Part shown: positions 18,851 to 25,375 of the stretch, one piece after another
Layout of the letters: each line of letters opens with the position of its first letter
Position numbering within the stretch: position 1 is the first letter of the stretch
DNA from: Nitrospirota bacterium
GTDB taxonomy: Bacteria > Nitrospirota > Thermodesulfovibrionia > Thermodesulfovibrionales > UBA6898
Assembly (NCBI GenBank): GCA_012026685.1
Contig: VEOY01000138.1
Location: 1 to 39,867, forward strand
Direction: 5' to 3'
DNA length: 39,867 nucleotides
Program-made: the position numbers and the translations under genes
The notes under the pieces: generated by a model
What the model was told of the DNA's origin: nothing
The model's database searches: none
The model's input: the letters and a program-made list of their open reading frames with translations, nothing else

Positions 18851-19372
18851 ATGGTCGTAGGAAAGCCGTTTCTCACCGTAGAGCAGATTCATCAAAAGAA
18901 CAAAGAGCTTGCCGACAGGATCTCTGCCGACTACAAAGGGAGCAACCTTCTCGCCGTCGGTATCTTGAAGGGGGCCTTCATCTTCTTCAGTGACCTGGTG
19001 AGACTCATCAGGGTCCCGCTGACGATCGATTTCCTCGTTGCCTCAAGCTACATGAAGTCCGAGACCTCCGGAGAGATCAAGCTGCATTACAACATCAGGG
19101 AAGAGATCGCCGACAAGGACGTTCTTCTCGTCGAGGACATCGTTGACACCGGCATCACCCTGAACTACCTCCGGGAGCGCATCCTGAACGAAGGACCGCG
19201 AAGCCTGAAGATCTGCACGTTCCTCGACAAGAAGGGACGGAGAGAGGTAGACGTGCCCATCGATTATGTCGGCTTCGAGATACCGAACGAATTCGTTGTC
19301 GGCTACGGCCTTGACTACGACATCAAATACCGGAACCTCCCCTACATATCCATCTTCAAGAAGACCGCATAA
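18851..19372 (+). CDS. hpt: Hypoxanthine phosphoribosyltransferase
   Basis: A 173-residue purine salvage enzyme converting hypoxanthine (and usually guanine) plus PRPP to IMP or GMP. The PRPP loop LLVEDIVDTGITL (about 97-109) and the flexible-loop region ASSYMKSE are present, with the C-terminal DYDIKYRNLPYI typical of bacterial Hpt. GGAGG lies just upstream of ATG 18851. It is the first gene of a plus-strand run: hpt, queD, pmbA and the AOR gene follow with gaps of 17 bp or less. Confidence 0.95.
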   Translation: MVVGKPFLTVEQIHQKNKELADRISADYKGSNLLAVGILKGAFIFFSDLVRLIRVPLTIDFLVASSYMKSETSGEIKLHYNIREEIADKDVLLVEDIVDTGITLNYLRERILNEGPRSLKICTFLDKKGRREVDVPIDYVGFEIPNEFVVGYGLDYDIKYRNLPYISIFKKTA

Positions 19373-19389
19373 TACCACGGAGGAGATCC

Positions 19390-19761
19390 ATGTTTGAACT
19401 TTCGATCGAAGTCTCTTTTTCTGCAGCCCATCAGCTCAGGGGCTACAAGGGCAAGTGCGAGAACATGCACGGCCACAACTGGAAAGTGCAGGTCAACGTC
19501 ATGGCCGACACCCTGAATGACATAGATATCGCGATGGACTTCCATGACCTCAAACGGATGGCCCGTGAAGTGATCGCGCCTCTTGACCACGCGTACCTCA
19601 ACGATCTGTTCCCCTTCACTGAAAAGAATCCCTCTTCGGAGAATATTGCGAAATGGATATTCGACAGCCTGAAGAAGAAGATCACGGAGGAGCATGTCAG
19701 GGTCTCTGCAGTGACCGTCTGGGAATCGGACACTGCATCAGCAACCTATTATGAGCCTTGA
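19390..19761 (+). CDS. queD: 6-carboxytetrahydropterin synthase
   Basis: A 123-residue enzyme of the PTPS/QueD family, making 6-carboxy-5,6,7,8-tetrahydropterin from 7,8-dihydroneopterin triphosphate in queuosine and 7-deazapurine synthesis. Zinc ligands His14, His27 and His29 (HGH), catalytic Cys23 (CENMHGH) and the late VTVWES Glu are all present. The C-x3-H spacing matches QueD rather than eukaryotic PTPS. A GGAGGAG precedes ATG 19390. Its 3' end overlaps pmbA by 11 bp. No queC or queE is nearby. Confidence 0.94.
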   Translation: MFELSIEVSFSAAHQLRGYKGKCENMHGHNWKVQVNVMADTLNDIDIAMDFHDLKRMAREVIAPLDHAYLNDLFPFTEKNPSSENIAKWIFDSLKKKITEEHVRVSAVTVWESDTASATYYEP

Positions 19762-21091
19762 TCCGGGCATGGCCGCGGACATCGTGTCCCGTGCGCTCAG
19801 AGGCGGGGCTGACCAGGCCGAGGTGTTCTTCAAGTCCTACCGGAACGTATCGGCCGAGATAAAGGACCAGGCAGTAGAATCCCTCTCCACATCGTTCAGT
19901 TCGGGATACGCCGTGCGGGTGATCAGGAACAACAGGCTGGGGTTTTCCTTCTCTACGGAAATCCGGGATTCCGGCGAGGTCGTCATGCGGGCGCTGGAAG
20001 CAGCGGGTTCGGTCGACGAAGATCCGTTGCTCACCTTTGCGCAGGCATCTCCGGCATCCGAGGTCCTGGTCTTCGATGATGCCGTCCGGGACGTCAACGA
20101 AGACGACGCCATCCGCATGGCCATGCTGGTGGAGAAGGCCGCCTACGAAACTGATGACAGGATAAAGCGCGTGCGGAAGCCCGCTGCCTCATTCACGGTT
20201 TCGGAGACCGTCATCGCCAACTCCTGCGGCGTAGCAGCGCGATATCAGGCCACCTCGTGCTCGGCCCAGATAACCGCAGTCGCCGAATCAGGCTATGAAA
20301 ACCAGACAGGATGGGATTTCATGGGCTCGCGTTTCCTGAAGGACGTCTCGTTCGAGCAGGTCGGCAGGACTGCGGCAGCAGCGGCTGTCAGGCTGCTCGG
20401 GTCCCGGAAAATGCAGGGCATGAAAACGGATGTCATACTCGATAATGCCGTTGCAAATGATTTCCTCGGCGTCTTTGCTTCCTCTCTCTCTTCCGATGCG
20501 GTCCAAAAAGGGAAATCACTTCTCGCTGACAGGGTCGGCACCGCTATCATCAGCGCCCGGCTCAACATCATTGACAGCGGTCTCCTTCCCGGCCGGCTCG
20601 GCAGCAAGCCTCTGGACGACGAAGGCTCAGCAACTCAGACCACACCGCTGGTCCATGAAGGCGTGCTTCGGTCTTACCTGTTCAACACCTACACGGCTCG
20701 CAAGGGCAACGCAGCGTCAACGGGCAATGCTGTTCGCGGAAGTTTCACGGCACTGCCCGGCGTAGGCGTCACAAACCTGTTTATCGAACCGTCCGGCGCT
20801 GCAGCCTCCATCCCCCGTGACAGGCTTTTCGGTGCACTGGGGAAAGGCCTGTATATTGTTGACGCCATGGGGGTCCATACGGCAAATCCCATATCGGGCG
20901 ATTTTTCGATCGGCGTTTCGGGCATATGGATCGAGAACGGCAAGGCCGCTTACCCCGTAAAGGAGGCCGTCATCTCCGGCAATCTGCTCGATTTCTTCAA
21001 CAAGGTCTCGGGCGTGTCCGATGACCTCCGGTTCTACGGCGCTCTCGGTTCACCCAGCCTGATCATATCCGATGTAGATGTAAGCGCCTGA
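19751..21091 (+). CDS. pmbA: TldD/PmbA family protein (PmbA/TldE-like)
   Basis: A 446-residue protein of the PmbA (TldE) branch, which pairs with TldD to form a heterodimeric protease involved in microcin maturation and removal of unfolded peptides. It lacks the HExxxH zinc site, as expected for the PmbA partner. Family segments LADRVGT, LDDEGSATQTTPLVHEG and GLYIVDAMGVHTANPISGDFSIGVSG are intact. The start overlaps the end of queD, indicating coupling. No tldD is seen here, so the catalytic partner must be elsewhere in the genome. Confidence 0.92.
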   Translation: MSLDPGMAADIVSRALRGGADQAEVFFKSYRNVSAEIKDQAVESLSTSFSSGYAVRVIRNNRLGFSFSTEIRDSGEVVMRALEAAGSVDEDPLLTFAQASPASEVLVFDDAVRDVNEDDAIRMAMLVEKAAYETDDRIKRVRKPAASFTVSETVIANSCGVAARYQATSCSAQITAVAESGYENQTGWDFMGSRFLKDVSFEQVGRTAAAAAVRLLGSRKMQGMKTDVILDNAVANDFLGVFASSLSSDAVQKGKSLLADRVGTAIISARLNIIDSGLLPGRLGSKPLDDEGSATQTTPLVHEGVLRSYLFNTYTARKGNAASTGNAVRGSFTALPGVGVTNLFIEPSGAAASIPRDRLFGALGKGLYIVDAMGVHTANPISGDFSIGVSGIWIENGKAAYPVKEAVISGNLLDFFNKVSGVSDDLRFYGALGSPSLIISDVDVSA

Positions 21092-21101
21092 ACCTCTGTC
21101 C

Positions 21102-22856
21102 ATGTACGGGTACACATCCAGAAGCCTCCGCATAGACCTTTCCACCGGCAGTGCGACGGTCATCGGCACCCCGCCGGACATAGTGTCAAAGTTCATCGGC
21201 GGCAGAGGGGCCGGCATTGCCCTCGCAGGCAGGAGGCTGACCGGAAACTTCGACGATCCCGCGACGCCGCTCATCATCGCGTCAGGCCCCCTTGTCGCAA
21301 CGGAAGCGCCGACATCCGGACGGGCCTCGGTCATATCTCGTTCCCCCCTCACCGGGACCGTACTTGACTGTTCCGTGGGCGGCAAGTTCGGCACGGAGCT
21401 CAAGCATGCCGGCTTCGACATCATCGAGATCACCGGGATCGCCCCAACATGGTCTTTGATCACCATTGAGGACCAGAAGGTTACCATTTCGGACGCTTCC
21501 GCTCTCGCAGGGAAGAACGTGACCGATGTGCGGACAGCTCTCGGCACGGACGGAGCTGATGCCGTTATCGGGGTCGCCGGAGAAAAACAGGTCAGGTTCG
21601 CTTCCATCGTCTTTGACGGACACTATCTTGCGGGGAGGGGCGGCATGGGCGCTGTCATGGGGGCGAAGAAGCTCAAAGCGATCCGGGTCAGGGGAAACGG
21701 CACATTCGACATCTTTGACAGAGCAGCCCTGAGGGCAAGCCGTGAGGAGATCATGAGGCTGCTCAGGGCGTCGCAGGCCGTGTTCGGAGAACTGGGCCTA
21801 GCGGAATTCGGGACGGCGGCGCTTGTTGACCTCATCCATGCCCGGCGGATGGAACCGACCGGCAACTTCAGGCAGACCTTTTACGATCACTCGTCCTCCT
21901 ATGCCGGGTATGCCCTGAAGCATATCTACCGGACAAAGAAGACCGGGTGCAGGGGATGCCCTATCCTCTGCAAGAAGATCGGTCAACATGGCGAAGTGAT
22001 CCCCGAGTATGAGACGGTCTCCCATTTCGGCGCGCTTAACCTCAACAACGACGCCGCCTCCATCGTGGAAGCCAACAGGCTCTGCAATGAATACGGCATG
22101 GACACGATCAGCACCGCGGCGACCATTGCCTGCTACGCAGAGATAGAGGACAGGAAGCTTACGTCCGAAGACATTCTTGATACCATCCGGGCAATAGGCG
22201 AACGGAGGACCGGGCTGGGGAATCAGCTCTCCGAAGGATCACATCGGTACGCGAATGCCTCCGGCAGGCCCGGCGCGACCATGTCGGTCAAAGGACTTGA
22301 ACTGCCTGCGTATGATCCCCGGGGCGCGTGCGGCATGGCGCTCGCTTATGCGACCTCAAACCGTGGCGGCTGCCATCTGCGGGCCTACCCGATCAGCCAC
22401 GAGATACTGCGCAAGCCGGTAGCCACGGACCGTTTCTCCTTTGAGGGAAAAGCCAGGATCATCAAGATCGCCGAGGACATGAATGCGGTCATCGACTCGC
22501 TGACCGCCTGCAAGTTCGTCTTCTTTGCCGCTTCTCTCGAGGAATACGCAAAGGCGGTATCAGCAGTCACGGGCAGGGAATACGATACGCAATCGCTGCT
22601 CAGGACCGGGGAAAGGATCTACGTTCTCGAGCGCTACCTTAACTCGCTCAACGGCTTCGACGCGGATGACGACGATCTGCCGGGGCGGTTCTTTACGGAA
22701 GAAGGCACATCGTCACCGAACATCAGGATAAAGCCTCTTGTCCGGCAGGAGTTCCTTGATGCCCGGAGCAATTACTACAAGATCAGGGGATATGACGCCC
22801 ATGGCAAGCCGACCGCAGAGCTCATGGAGAAACTGGGGCTGGGAGAATATGTGTAA
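21102..22856 (+). CDS. Aldehyde:ferredoxin oxidoreductase family tungstoenzyme
   Basis: A 584-residue AOR-family oxidoreductase, expected to carry a tungstopterin and one [4Fe-4S] cluster and to oxidise aldehydes with ferredoxin (or the reverse). The N-terminal domain has GGRGAGIALAGRRL and the pterin-binding GRGGMGAVMGAKKLKAI (about 180-195). Cluster cysteines are CRGCPILC (about 283-290) with a distal Cys near 469 (TACKF). The family RGGCHLRAYPISHE is present. Length is close to the usual 600. No pterin synthesis genes or ferredoxin are adjacent; the ferredoxin-type protein at 4.3 kb is a candidate partner only by co-residence. Substrate is unknown. It is followed by an aldolase-like gene. 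Confidence 0.93.
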   Translation: MYGYTSRSLRIDLSTGSATVIGTPPDIVSKFIGGRGAGIALAGRRLTGNFDDPATPLIIASGPLVATEAPTSGRASVISRSPLTGTVLDCSVGGKFGTELKHAGFDIIEITGIAPTWSLITIEDQKVTISDASALAGKNVTDVRTALGTDGADAVIGVAGEKQVRFASIVFDGHYLAGRGGMGAVMGAKKLKAIRVRGNGTFDIFDRAALRASREEIMRLLRASQAVFGELGLAEFGTAALVDLIHARRMEPTGNFRQTFYDHSSSYAGYALKHIYRTKKTGCRGCPILCKKIGQHGEVIPEYETVSHFGALNLNNDAASIVEANRLCNEYGMDTISTAATIACYAEIEDRKLTSEDILDTIRAIGERRTGLGNQLSEGSHRYANASGRPGATMSVKGLELPAYDPRGACGMALAYATSNRGGCHLRAYPISHEILRKPVATDRFSFEGKARIIKIAEDMNAVIDSLTACKFVFFAASLEEYAKAVSAVTGREYDTQSLLRTGERIYVLERYLNSLNGFDADDDDLPGRFFTEEGTSSPNIRIKPLVRQEFLDARSNYYKIRGYDAHGKPTAELMEKLGLGEYV

Positions 22857-22941
22857 AAGCGGCATATGGCGCGGAACAAAAGCAAAAGGCCGGAAAGGGC
22901 GCGGCGTAAGACAACACCTCCGACAGACAAACTGAATACTC

Positions 22942-24120
22942 ATGAAGAAACTCATCGATAAATACGTCGGCAAGATCGTAAGTCAGGGACTGGCAGAGAG
23001 AGAGAGCATTGCCCTTATCGGCCTTGATGCAGAGTTCACGGCGAACAGGAGCCTTTCAGATATCGACCCCGAGCTGCTCAAGGTCTTTGACCGCATGAAC
23101 ATAAATGCCCTTCTCTATGCTGAACCCGCAGAGCCGTACAGGAGCATCCTGCGGTATCTTGCGGCTCATCATAATGGGTGTCTGGTGCCTACAGACTGCG
23201 AGACGCGCACATTTCTTCATGATATCCCCGTTATCCCCGTCCTCTCGGCAGAAGCGGTTGTCACGGCACTGTCACACCGCAAGGCAGCGATCGTCGGGGA
23301 TAAGGGTATCATCTCCTTCGGCACCGTAAGCCCTGAACAGGCGTTTGTATCGTTCAGTTCCGTCTGCTTCTCGACATTCGTGAAGTTCTTCACGGACGTG
23401 ATGTACCATCTTGACGACCTTGCGGGCCGCAGAGCCGACAGGAATGCGGAACTTCTGGAGGCTTACCGGGAAATATCCGGAAAGGTCCCGGCTCCGGTCC
23501 TCGGCTGCGATGCCGTCCCCCTCTCCCCACCCGCTGAAATTGATGAAATATATCGGCAGATGGCCGATACCGGCAAAGAGCTGGTGAGACAGAGACTGGT
23601 TGATTCGTATTTCGGCAATATCTCCTATATCTACGGGGACACCATTTACATAAGCCAGACGGGAAGTTCCATGGATGAGCTTGAGGCCTGCATCGATGCT
23701 GTCCCCCTTGATGGTTCATCCTCTTCCGGGATCACTGCTTCATCCGAACTGTCCGCGCACATCAGCATCTTCAGAAGGACCGGAAGGCGTGCCATCATAC
23801 ACGGTCATCCGAAGTTCACGGTCATCATGTCCATGTCCTGCAGAAAGCAGGGATGCGACATGTCGACCTGCTACCGGTCCTGCAGAACGGAGCGGTCGGT
23901 CTCGGGCATGCCTGTCGTTTCCGGAGAGATAGGCACGGGGCCAACCGGGCTGGTCCATACGGTGCCTGAAGCCATGACCCGAGGAAAGGCTGTACTGGTC
24001 TTCGGCCACGGCATTTTTTCCGCGAGCGGGGACAACTTCAGTCCTGCCTTCGATCTCCTCCGGTCCGCGGAGGAGACGTGCAGAAAGGAATATTTCAAGA
24101 AAATTCAGGCACTTATATAA
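22942..24120 (+). CDS. Tandem class II aldolase/adducin-like protein
   Basis: A 392-residue protein made of two aldolase-like halves. The C-terminal half (about 205-390) has the four zinc ligands of class II aldolases: Glu in SSELSAH, the HGH in IIHGHPK (about 287) and the His of VFGHGIF (about 354). It could therefore cleave a sugar phosphate or related aldol. A four-cysteine insert (CRKQGCDMSTCYRSC) right after HGH is an oddity and may bind metal. The N-terminal half has related spacing but no complete metal site and looks degenerate or structural. The start ATG 22942 has a weak binding site. Placement 85 bp after the AOR gene suggests that an aldehyde released here could feed that enzyme. 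Confidence 0.85.
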   Translation: MKKLIDKYVGKIVSQGLAERESIALIGLDAEFTANRSLSDIDPELLKVFDRMNINALLYAEPAEPYRSILRYLAAHHNGCLVPTDCETRTFLHDIPVIPVLSAEAVVTALSHRKAAIVGDKGIISFGTVSPEQAFVSFSSVCFSTFVKFFTDVMYHLDDLAGRRADRNAELLEAYREISGKVPAPVLGCDAVPLSPPAEIDEIYRQMADTGKELVRQRLVDSYFGNISYIYGDTIYISQTGSSMDELEACIDAVPLDGSSSSGITASSELSAHISIFRRTGRRAIIHGHPKFTVIMSMSCRKQGCDMSTCYRSCRTERSVSGMPVVSGEIGTGPTGLVHTVPEAMTRGKAVLVFGHGIFSASGDNFSPAFDLLRSAEETCRKEYFKKIQALI

Positions 24121-24121: not shown

Positions 24122-24214
24122 ATTATTCCTTTCAAAAATCTGCAGGTATCTGGTAGAATGTTCGATAACGTTTCTTTCTTGCTGTTTGAGACTTTAAAAG
24201 CCGGAGGACTAACC

Positions 24215-25375
24215 ATGGACTATTTTTTGACTGAAGAGCAGATAATGATACGGGATCTTGCCAGGCAGATCGCCGAAGAGAAGATCGTTCCGGTAAGGGG
24301 CGAACTGGATGAGACCGGCGAGTTCCCCTGGGAGATCATGAAGGTGCTCGCTCAGTCAGATCTTTTCGGTCTTTTCATCCCTGAGGAGTACGGTGGCCTC
24401 GGCAAGGGATGCCTGGAACTCTGCATTGCGGTCGAAGAACTTTCCCGCGCCTGTGTGGGCGTGTCGACGTCCTATGCTGCCAACGCGCTCGGTACGTATC
24501 CGCTCCTGCTCTTCGGCTCCGATGCCCAGAAGAAGAAGTTCCTGTCCGATATTGCAGCAGGCAAAAAGCTGGTCGCGTTCGGCCTTACCGAGGCAAATGC
24601 CGGAAGTGATGCCAGCGGCATCCAGACAACGGCAAAACTCGATGGAAATGAATATGTGCTGAACGGCACGAAGCAGTGGATCACGAACGGAAGTGTAGCC
24701 GATGTCTACACGATCATAGCGATCACCGACCGGGCGAAGGGGCCCCGCGGCGCGTCCGCCTTTGTCGTGGAAAAAGGGACACCCGGCTTCAGCTTCGGCA
24801 AGAAAGAGAACAAAATGGGCATCAGGGCATCCATAACCACTGAGCTCGTGTTCGATAATTGCCGCATCCCGAAGGAAAACCTTATCGGAAAGGAAGGCAT
24901 GGGCTTTATCGTTGCCATGAAGACCCTTGACAGCTCCCGTACGGGTGTCGGTGCCCAGGGCCTCGGCGTTGCCCAGGGTGCGTTCGACGAGGCGGTGAAG
25001 TTCGCACGTAAAAGGGTCCAGTTCGGGCATCCGATCATCAGCTTTCAGGCGATCCAGCATATGCTTGCGGATATGGCCACCTCCATCGAAGCAGCCCGTG
25101 CATTGATATATTCCGTGGCCCGTTATGTGGACAGCGGGGCAAAGGAAGTATCCAAGGTCTCTGCCATGGCAAAGTGTTTTGCCACCGATCTCGGCATGAA
25201 GGTGACGACCGATGCGGTACAGATCATGGGAGGCTCCGGATATATGAAAGAATACCCGGGCGAGAAGATGATGCGTGACGCAAAGATCCTTCAGATCTAT
25301 GAAGGCACGAACCAGATACAAAGGAATGTCATCGGCCAGGAGATCATCAAGGAATTCGCCCGGAACAACAAGTAA
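24215..25375 (+). CDS. Acyl-CoA dehydrogenase (short/medium-chain type)
   Basis: A 386-residue flavoenzyme that introduces the alpha-beta double bond in acyl-CoA, passing electrons to electron-transfer flavoprotein. Family features: LTEANAGSDASGIQTTA (FAD/substrate loop), WITNGSVADVY, KMGIRAS and C-terminal GGSGYMKEYPGEKMMRD followed by QIYEGTNQIQ. In that last segment Glu363 is the catalytic base of the butyryl/short-chain group. ATG 24215 is preceded by GGAGG; the frame extension to 24158 has no support. It has its own promoter candidate and a clear terminator. No etfAB or other beta-oxidation gene is adjacent, so its acyl substrate cannot be named. Confidence 0.95.
   Translation: MDYFLTEEQIMIRDLARQIAEEKIVPVRGELDETGEFPWEIMKVLAQSDLFGLFIPEEYGGLGKGCLELCIAVEELSRACVGVSTSYAANALGTYPLLLFGSDAQKKKFLSDIAAGKKLVAFGLTEANAGSDASGIQTTAKLDGNEYVLNGTKQWITNGSVADVYTIIAITDRAKGPRGASAFVVEKGTPGFSFGKKENKMGIRASITTELVFDNCRIPKENLIGKEGMGFIVAMKTLDSSRTGVGAQGLGVAQGAFDEAVKFARKRVQFGHPIISFQAIQHMLADMATSIEAARALIYSVARYVDSGAKEVSKVSAMAKCFATDLGMKVTTDAVQIMGGSGYMKEYPGEKMMRDAKILQIYEGTNQIQRNVIGQEIIKEFARNNK

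Follow-up and report, generated by a model that had tools for sequence, protein, structure and literature searches.

The window, i.e. the whole 39,867-nucleotide stretch of DNA analyzed here, encodes an enzyme of the aldehyde:ferredoxin oxidoreductase (AOR) family and, after a gap of 85 bases and on the same (forward) strand, a two-domain class II aldolase. In the mostly uncultured bacteria that carry them, these two enzymes nearly always form a co-inherited two-enzyme module, in which known enzyme families occur in a combination that a literature search did not turn up and with an unusual aldolase architecture. The explanation that best accounts for the whole, to which we give a probability of about two in three, is a co-inherited module in which an aldolase with a split active site would be fed by MtnP and MtnA, and in which the AOR would oxidize the aldolase product. 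AOR-family enzymes are widespread and, to our knowledge, the physiological aldehyde of many of them is not known; for one AOR clade, an aldolase that almost always accompanies it would be a concrete source of that aldehyde. One active site apparently shared between a dead and a live half, together with a four-Cys site, is moreover unusual in a well-studied fold.

An AOR clade and its aldolase partner across the phylum

The AOR gene (21102-22856, forward strand) encodes a catalytic subunit of 584 aa with matches to both AOR Pfam domains, AFOR_N (PF02730; E 2e-58, 198 bits against a cut-off of 29.8) and AFOR_C (PF01314; E 1e-108, 364 bits against a cut-off of 27). The nearest PDB entry was the AOR from P. 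furiosus (1aor; E 8e-118), the alignment spanning the whole length and placing E304 (22011-22013) and H425 (22374-22376) at the positions of E313 and H448 of the P. furiosus enzyme, which we take to be residues near the tungsten. The predicted [4Fe-4S] ligands are C283-x2-C286-x3-C290 (21948-21971), which each of the motif variants listed shows as CxxCPxxC, and C470 (22509-22511), found as DSxxxC in orthologues. All of these residues (C283, C286, C290, C470, E304 and H425) are present in the window AOR and kept among its orthologues. Judged by its family membership, the protein would be a tungsten enzyme, or possibly a molybdenum one, oxidizing an aldehyde with ferredoxin. Two more, distant AOR-family genes are encoded in the same genome (an assembly of 3.0 Mb in 213 contigs), at G000:C58:3052-3666 and G000:C71:1519-2109, with ~30% identity to the window AOR.

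The survey of the pair began with 61 relatives and was extended to 295 genomes of the phylum Nitrospirota, with the AOR clade delimited at an identity of at least about 45%. Both genes were found in 32 of the 295 genomes, the AOR alone in two, the aldolase alone in none and neither gene in 261 (Fisher 8e-41, a value that ignores the relatedness of the genomes). In the two AOR-only cases, the AOR gene ends exactly at the contig end (G005) or the genome is 85% complete (G119). The genes are adjacent on the same strand in 19 of the 32 pairs, separated by 1-3.3 kb of one contig and on opposite strands in three, and unlinked or on different contigs in ten; some of these separated pairs may be assembly breaks, and in the one-contig genome G031 the genes are far apart. 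Five genera (g1, g6, g15, g22 and g105) each include species having both genes and species having neither, and these within-genus changes, together with the unlinked cases, are a stronger argument than the Fisher value. Paralogous AORs (24-36% identity), which serve as an internal control, are common without the aldolase, and the link is therefore specific to this AOR clade. The AOR and aldolase distance matrices correlate with an r of 0.90, and of 0.91 among eight unlinked genomes, a correlation that partly reflects plain shared descent.

Given the near-perfect co-occurrence, unlinked genomes included, and the mirrored divergence of the two proteins, functional coupling of the AOR clade and the two-domain aldolase is strongly supported. 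The first-pass annotation of the window had named an AOR gene followed by an aldolase gene, had left the conservation of the pair to a gene-neighbourhood survey, and had proposed that the aldolase may release an aldehyde which the AOR oxidizes to an acid. Both open reading frames (21102-22856 and 22942-24120) were confirmed, and the counts given above bear out the conservation of the pair. As for the proposed route, its functional coupling is upheld by the co-occurrence and the correlated distances, whereas the aldehyde product and its oxidation to an acid with ferredoxin are read from the enzyme families. Outside this survey, a search of wider genome contigs with a single sequence found one relative, and viral contigs and plasmids yielded none. 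In a literature search, AOR was not found together with either ‘class II aldolase’ or Nitrospirota, and for AOR and fuculose together only a general Clostridia review was retrieved.

A third partner was sought by clustering all neighbourhood proteins, and none was common beyond close relatives, bar a generic ABC-type ATPase cluster. Upstream in the window, and outside the conserved pair, hpt, queD and a gene for a PmbA/TldD-type protease (18851-21091, forward strand) run in the same direction and with tiny gaps straight into the AOR gene, an operon-like arrangement kept in families f1 and f12 only. The acyl-CoA dehydrogenase gene downstream of the aldolase gene (24158-25375, forward strand) is likewise kept as a neighbour in near relatives (f1 and f12) only. 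In three genomes of family f23, a gene just past that of the AOR encodes a small protein in which the motif TGxTCGAVTGxLxVIGL occurs (L119:2559-2855, L120:9814-10254 and L121:9613-9978). An Rfam search of the window gave no match.

Aldolase architecture and a putative split active site

The aldolase gene (22942-24120, forward strand) encodes a protein of 392 aa with a single Pfam Aldolase_II match (PF00596), found at residues 205-381 with 81.5 bits against a cut-off of 22.2. The match falls in the C-terminal half (C-half; residues 198-392, 23533-24117; E 9e-23), which is the predicted catalytic domain. Its residues were compared to those of FucA, in which Asn29, Thr43, Gly44, Ser71 and Ser72 bind the substrate phosphate (PMC11841055), and conservation was counted over 32 full or near-full orthologues. 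The equivalents of FucA N29, T43 and G44 are N226 and T240-G241 (23617-23664; N and T in 32/32, G in 21/32), and those of S71, S72 and the catalytic E73 are S267-S268-E269 (23740-23748), invariant in all 32 orthologues. The metal-binding histidines H92 and H94 of FucA correspond to H287-G-H289 (23800-23808), and the third, H155, to H356 (24007-24009), again in 32/32. The metal site of one Glu and three His (E269, H287, H289 and H356) is complete in the C-half of every orthologue and missing from the N-terminal half (N-half), where the positions of the two motif His are mostly occupied by Y/F and E/R in the orthologue alignment. This conservation points to an intact, putative metal site in the C-half.

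The N-half (residues 1-180, 22942-23481) was recognized with hhalign as a diverged domain without metal ligands. In profile comparisons it matched the single-domain aldolases L017 and L021 of the same order with an E of 2e-8 over 119 columns and its own C-half with an E of 8e-5 (column-shuffled controls, 0.1-0.5), and the Pfam Aldolase_II model catches the N-half weakly in two orthologues. On the strength of these profiles it is a diverged second copy of the aldolase domain. An AF2 model of the aldolase from two sequences (the window protein and L022) reached a pLDDT of 35 and a pTM of 0.26 and is not interpretable. The two single-domain aldolases (L021, G037:C1:6349-6837; L017, G033:C14:1929-2435) are near the NCBIfam family NF006413 and have no four-Cys segment of the kind described below; G037 carries both a single-domain and a two-domain aldolase. 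Family f3 (G028, G040, G060, G182, G185 and others), which is without the pair, encodes different proteins of ~700 aa with an Aldolase_II match, perhaps fused dehydrogenase-aldolases.

The division of labor between the two halves is suggested by a loop of the N-half, D85-C-E87-TRTFL-H93-DI-P96 (23194-23229, forward strand), which the profile alignment places at ‘PVDTEAPILIG’ of the single-domain relatives. D85, E87, F91 and P96 are conserved in 32/32 orthologues and H93 in 31/32. The ‘PxDxE’ loop is thus common to the N-half and the single-domain relatives of the same order, and at its place the C-half holds four Cys. In FucA, Tyr113 works in the active site of the adjoining subunit (PMC11841055), and by sequence position this residue falls in the same loop. 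The loop alignment and the known quaternary structure of FucA together suggest that the active site is split, the N-half loop completing the metal site of a C-half, and each half would keep only what serves the one live site.

The four Cys of the C-half (C300, C305, C310 and C314; 23839-23883, forward strand) form two pairs, C-x3/4-C and C-x3-C, joined by a linker whose length varies between 4 and 18 residues. This pattern is complete in 30 of the 32 orthologues, with varied spacing, and is therefore no chance run. In genus g38 (L143 in G176 and L148 in G202), the segment (residues ~300-314) is shorter and retains just one of the four Cys, and the catalytic residues and the adjoining AOR are kept despite this loss. 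That the Cys are lost jointly and that the linker is free in length would fit a metal knuckle with four ligands, dispensable for catalysis, with Zn and Fe-S as the candidate metal centers. If this putative metal binding, which is plausible, is true, the cluster would be a metal site new to the class II aldolase fold. The first-pass annotation had described two aldolase-like halves with a full Glu/His site in the C-terminal one only, a reading with which the present data agree. It had also placed a Cys insert right after HGH, suggesting that it may bind metal; the four Cys proved real but stand 11 to 25 residues past the second His, and metal binding by a set kept as four ligands retains its plausibility with the reservation that one genus does without it.

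In the mechanism that we propose, H287, H289 and H356 of the C-half would hold a divalent metal, such as Zn, Mn or Fe, and E269 would act as the base in the splitting of a ketose 1-phosphate, the products being DHAP and a short aldehyde. The N-half would be a catalytically dead copy, and its kept loop, corresponding to the loop that in tetrameric class II aldolases reaches into the active site of the adjoining subunit, would complete the live site of a C-half. Two chains would form a pseudo-tetramer, half of whose four sites would be live and half dead. The four-Cys segment, located on the C-half's own loop, would face a dead site and most likely act as a structural metal knuckle. The AOR would turn the aldehyde into the acid, with ferredoxin being reduced.

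Substrate of the pair and competing explanations

The most likely feed would be 5-deoxyribulose-1-P or methylthioribulose-1-P, formed via MtnP and MtnA from 5'-deoxyadenosine or methylthioadenosine, and the whole route would be a variant of the DHAP shunt linked to ferredoxin. In that shunt, DHAP and either acetaldehyde or methylthioacetaldehyde arise from 5'-deoxyadenosine or methylthioadenosine through a nucleoside phosphorylase (or a nucleosidase plus a kinase), MtnA and an aldolase of class II (PMC10986504, PMC6079011, PMC8102628). All 18 pair genomes searched for MtnP encode it, and MtnA is missing from just one of the 32 (G097). As a tracker of the pair, MtnA fails to discriminate, being found in 277 of the 295 genomes, pair or no pair. 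Among the 18 tested pair genomes, FucI was found in none and an OtnK-type kinase in one, which disfavors the fucose and 3-oxo-tetronate routes. The mtn genes were not among the common neighbours of the pair, mtnP and mtnA being located elsewhere in the genomes, and the clustering of a DHAP shunt (mtnK, or mtnP and mtnA, beside the aldolase gene) was not observed. In the sampled pair genomes of the order, G037 excepted, the two-domain aldolase is the sole Aldolase_II protein; as MtnB is a member of that family, ordinary methionine salvage past MtnA looks blocked there. Many MtnA-bearing genomes of the order are without any class II aldolase.

With MtnP and MtnA present and FucI absent, we put forward these two ketose phosphates as a tentative feed only, at odds well short of even; the DHAP shunt is our best guess among the available feeds, though an enzyme as widespread as MtnA cannot prove it. 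In its fullest form, this would be an anaerobic DHAP shunt in which 5'-deoxyadenosine, a radical SAM waste product, would be converted to DHAP and acetaldehyde by a split-site, pseudo-heterotetrameric aldolase, a dedicated tungsten AOR would oxidize the acetaldehyde and yield low-potential electrons, and the four Cys would constitute a new metal site; that all of these parts hold together is unlikely. If the DHAP-shunt reading is true, a toxic by-product of radical SAM enzymes would serve anaerobes as a source from which both carbon and electrons of low potential are recovered.

A serious contender, with odds somewhat below even, is that the pair acts on another phosphorylated substrate, e.g. 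a deoxyketose 1-phosphate giving lactaldehyde or glycolaldehyde, in which case MtnP and MtnA would be irrelevant. The phosphate-site residues of the C-half would suit any ketose 1-phosphate, and the presence of MtnA irrespective of the pair is equally in its favor; on the other hand, the lack of FucI in 18/18 and of an OtnK-type kinase in 17/18 pair genomes, and the lack of any sugar kinase or isomerase among the common neighbours, argue against such a substrate.

The sequence of the aldolase-fold protein itself leaves room for another reaction, such as that of an epimerase, decarboxylase, dehydratase or dioxygenase. The protein scored under every NCBIfam cut-off, with 142 bits (126 in another run) against 203 for NF006413 (PRK08660) and low scores including 22-36 bits against 250-400. 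The position of FucA Tyr113 is without a clear match, and the superfamily includes enzymes of other function, e.g. pyruvic oxime dioxygenase (PMC11841055). However, the equivalents of Glu73 and of the phosphate-binding residues are kept, which pyruvic oxime dioxygenase is without (PMC11841055). The protein is in addition tied to an aldehyde-using enzyme, and we regard a reaction other than aldol cleavage as rather improbable.

The reactions of AORs and aldolases are reversible in their families, and the pair is kept in settings without any catabolic cluster, both of which would agree with an AOR running reductively, from acid to aldehyde, and an aldolase joining the aldehyde and DHAP into a deoxyketose phosphate. 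Acid reduction, however, demands electrons of very low potential, and no biosynthetic partner gene is common to the neighbourhoods, making this direction decidedly improbable. Finally, the co-occurrence might stem from shared ancestry only, without a functional link between adjoining genes, and the relatedness of the genomes and the adjacency inherited by many of them would agree with this. However, both genes are kept though unlinked in ten genomes and are jointly present or absent inside five genera, and we regard this explanation as very improbable.

Relation to known enzymes

The preferred reading, a co-inherited module of a split-site aldolase and an AOR oxidizing its product, draws on features shared with characterized systems. 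The window AOR has the [4Fe-4S] Cys pattern and the E313 and H448 equivalents in common with the P. furiosus AOR (1aor), is ~20 residues shorter and, unlike that enzyme, belongs to a bacterial clade tracking an aldolase gene. The aldolase C-half shares the metal ligands, the Glu base and the phosphate-site residues with FucA; FucA is a one-domain homotetramer, whereas the window aldolase is a fusion with a presumably dead N-half, and the loop of the FucA Tyr113 region is swapped for the four Cys in its C-half. The top-scoring NCBIfam model for the C-half was NF006413, the aldolases of which are of a single domain, in contrast to the window protein, which would split the metal site and the DxE loop between its halves. 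DrdA and Ald2 (PMC6079011, PMC10986504) have the same class II aldolase fold, the same proposed reaction and the same proposed use of the MtnP/MtnA product as the window aldolase, but these enzymes are single-domain and encoded in clusters with mtn-type genes, whereas the window aldolase is partnered by an AOR, with the mtn genes found elsewhere.
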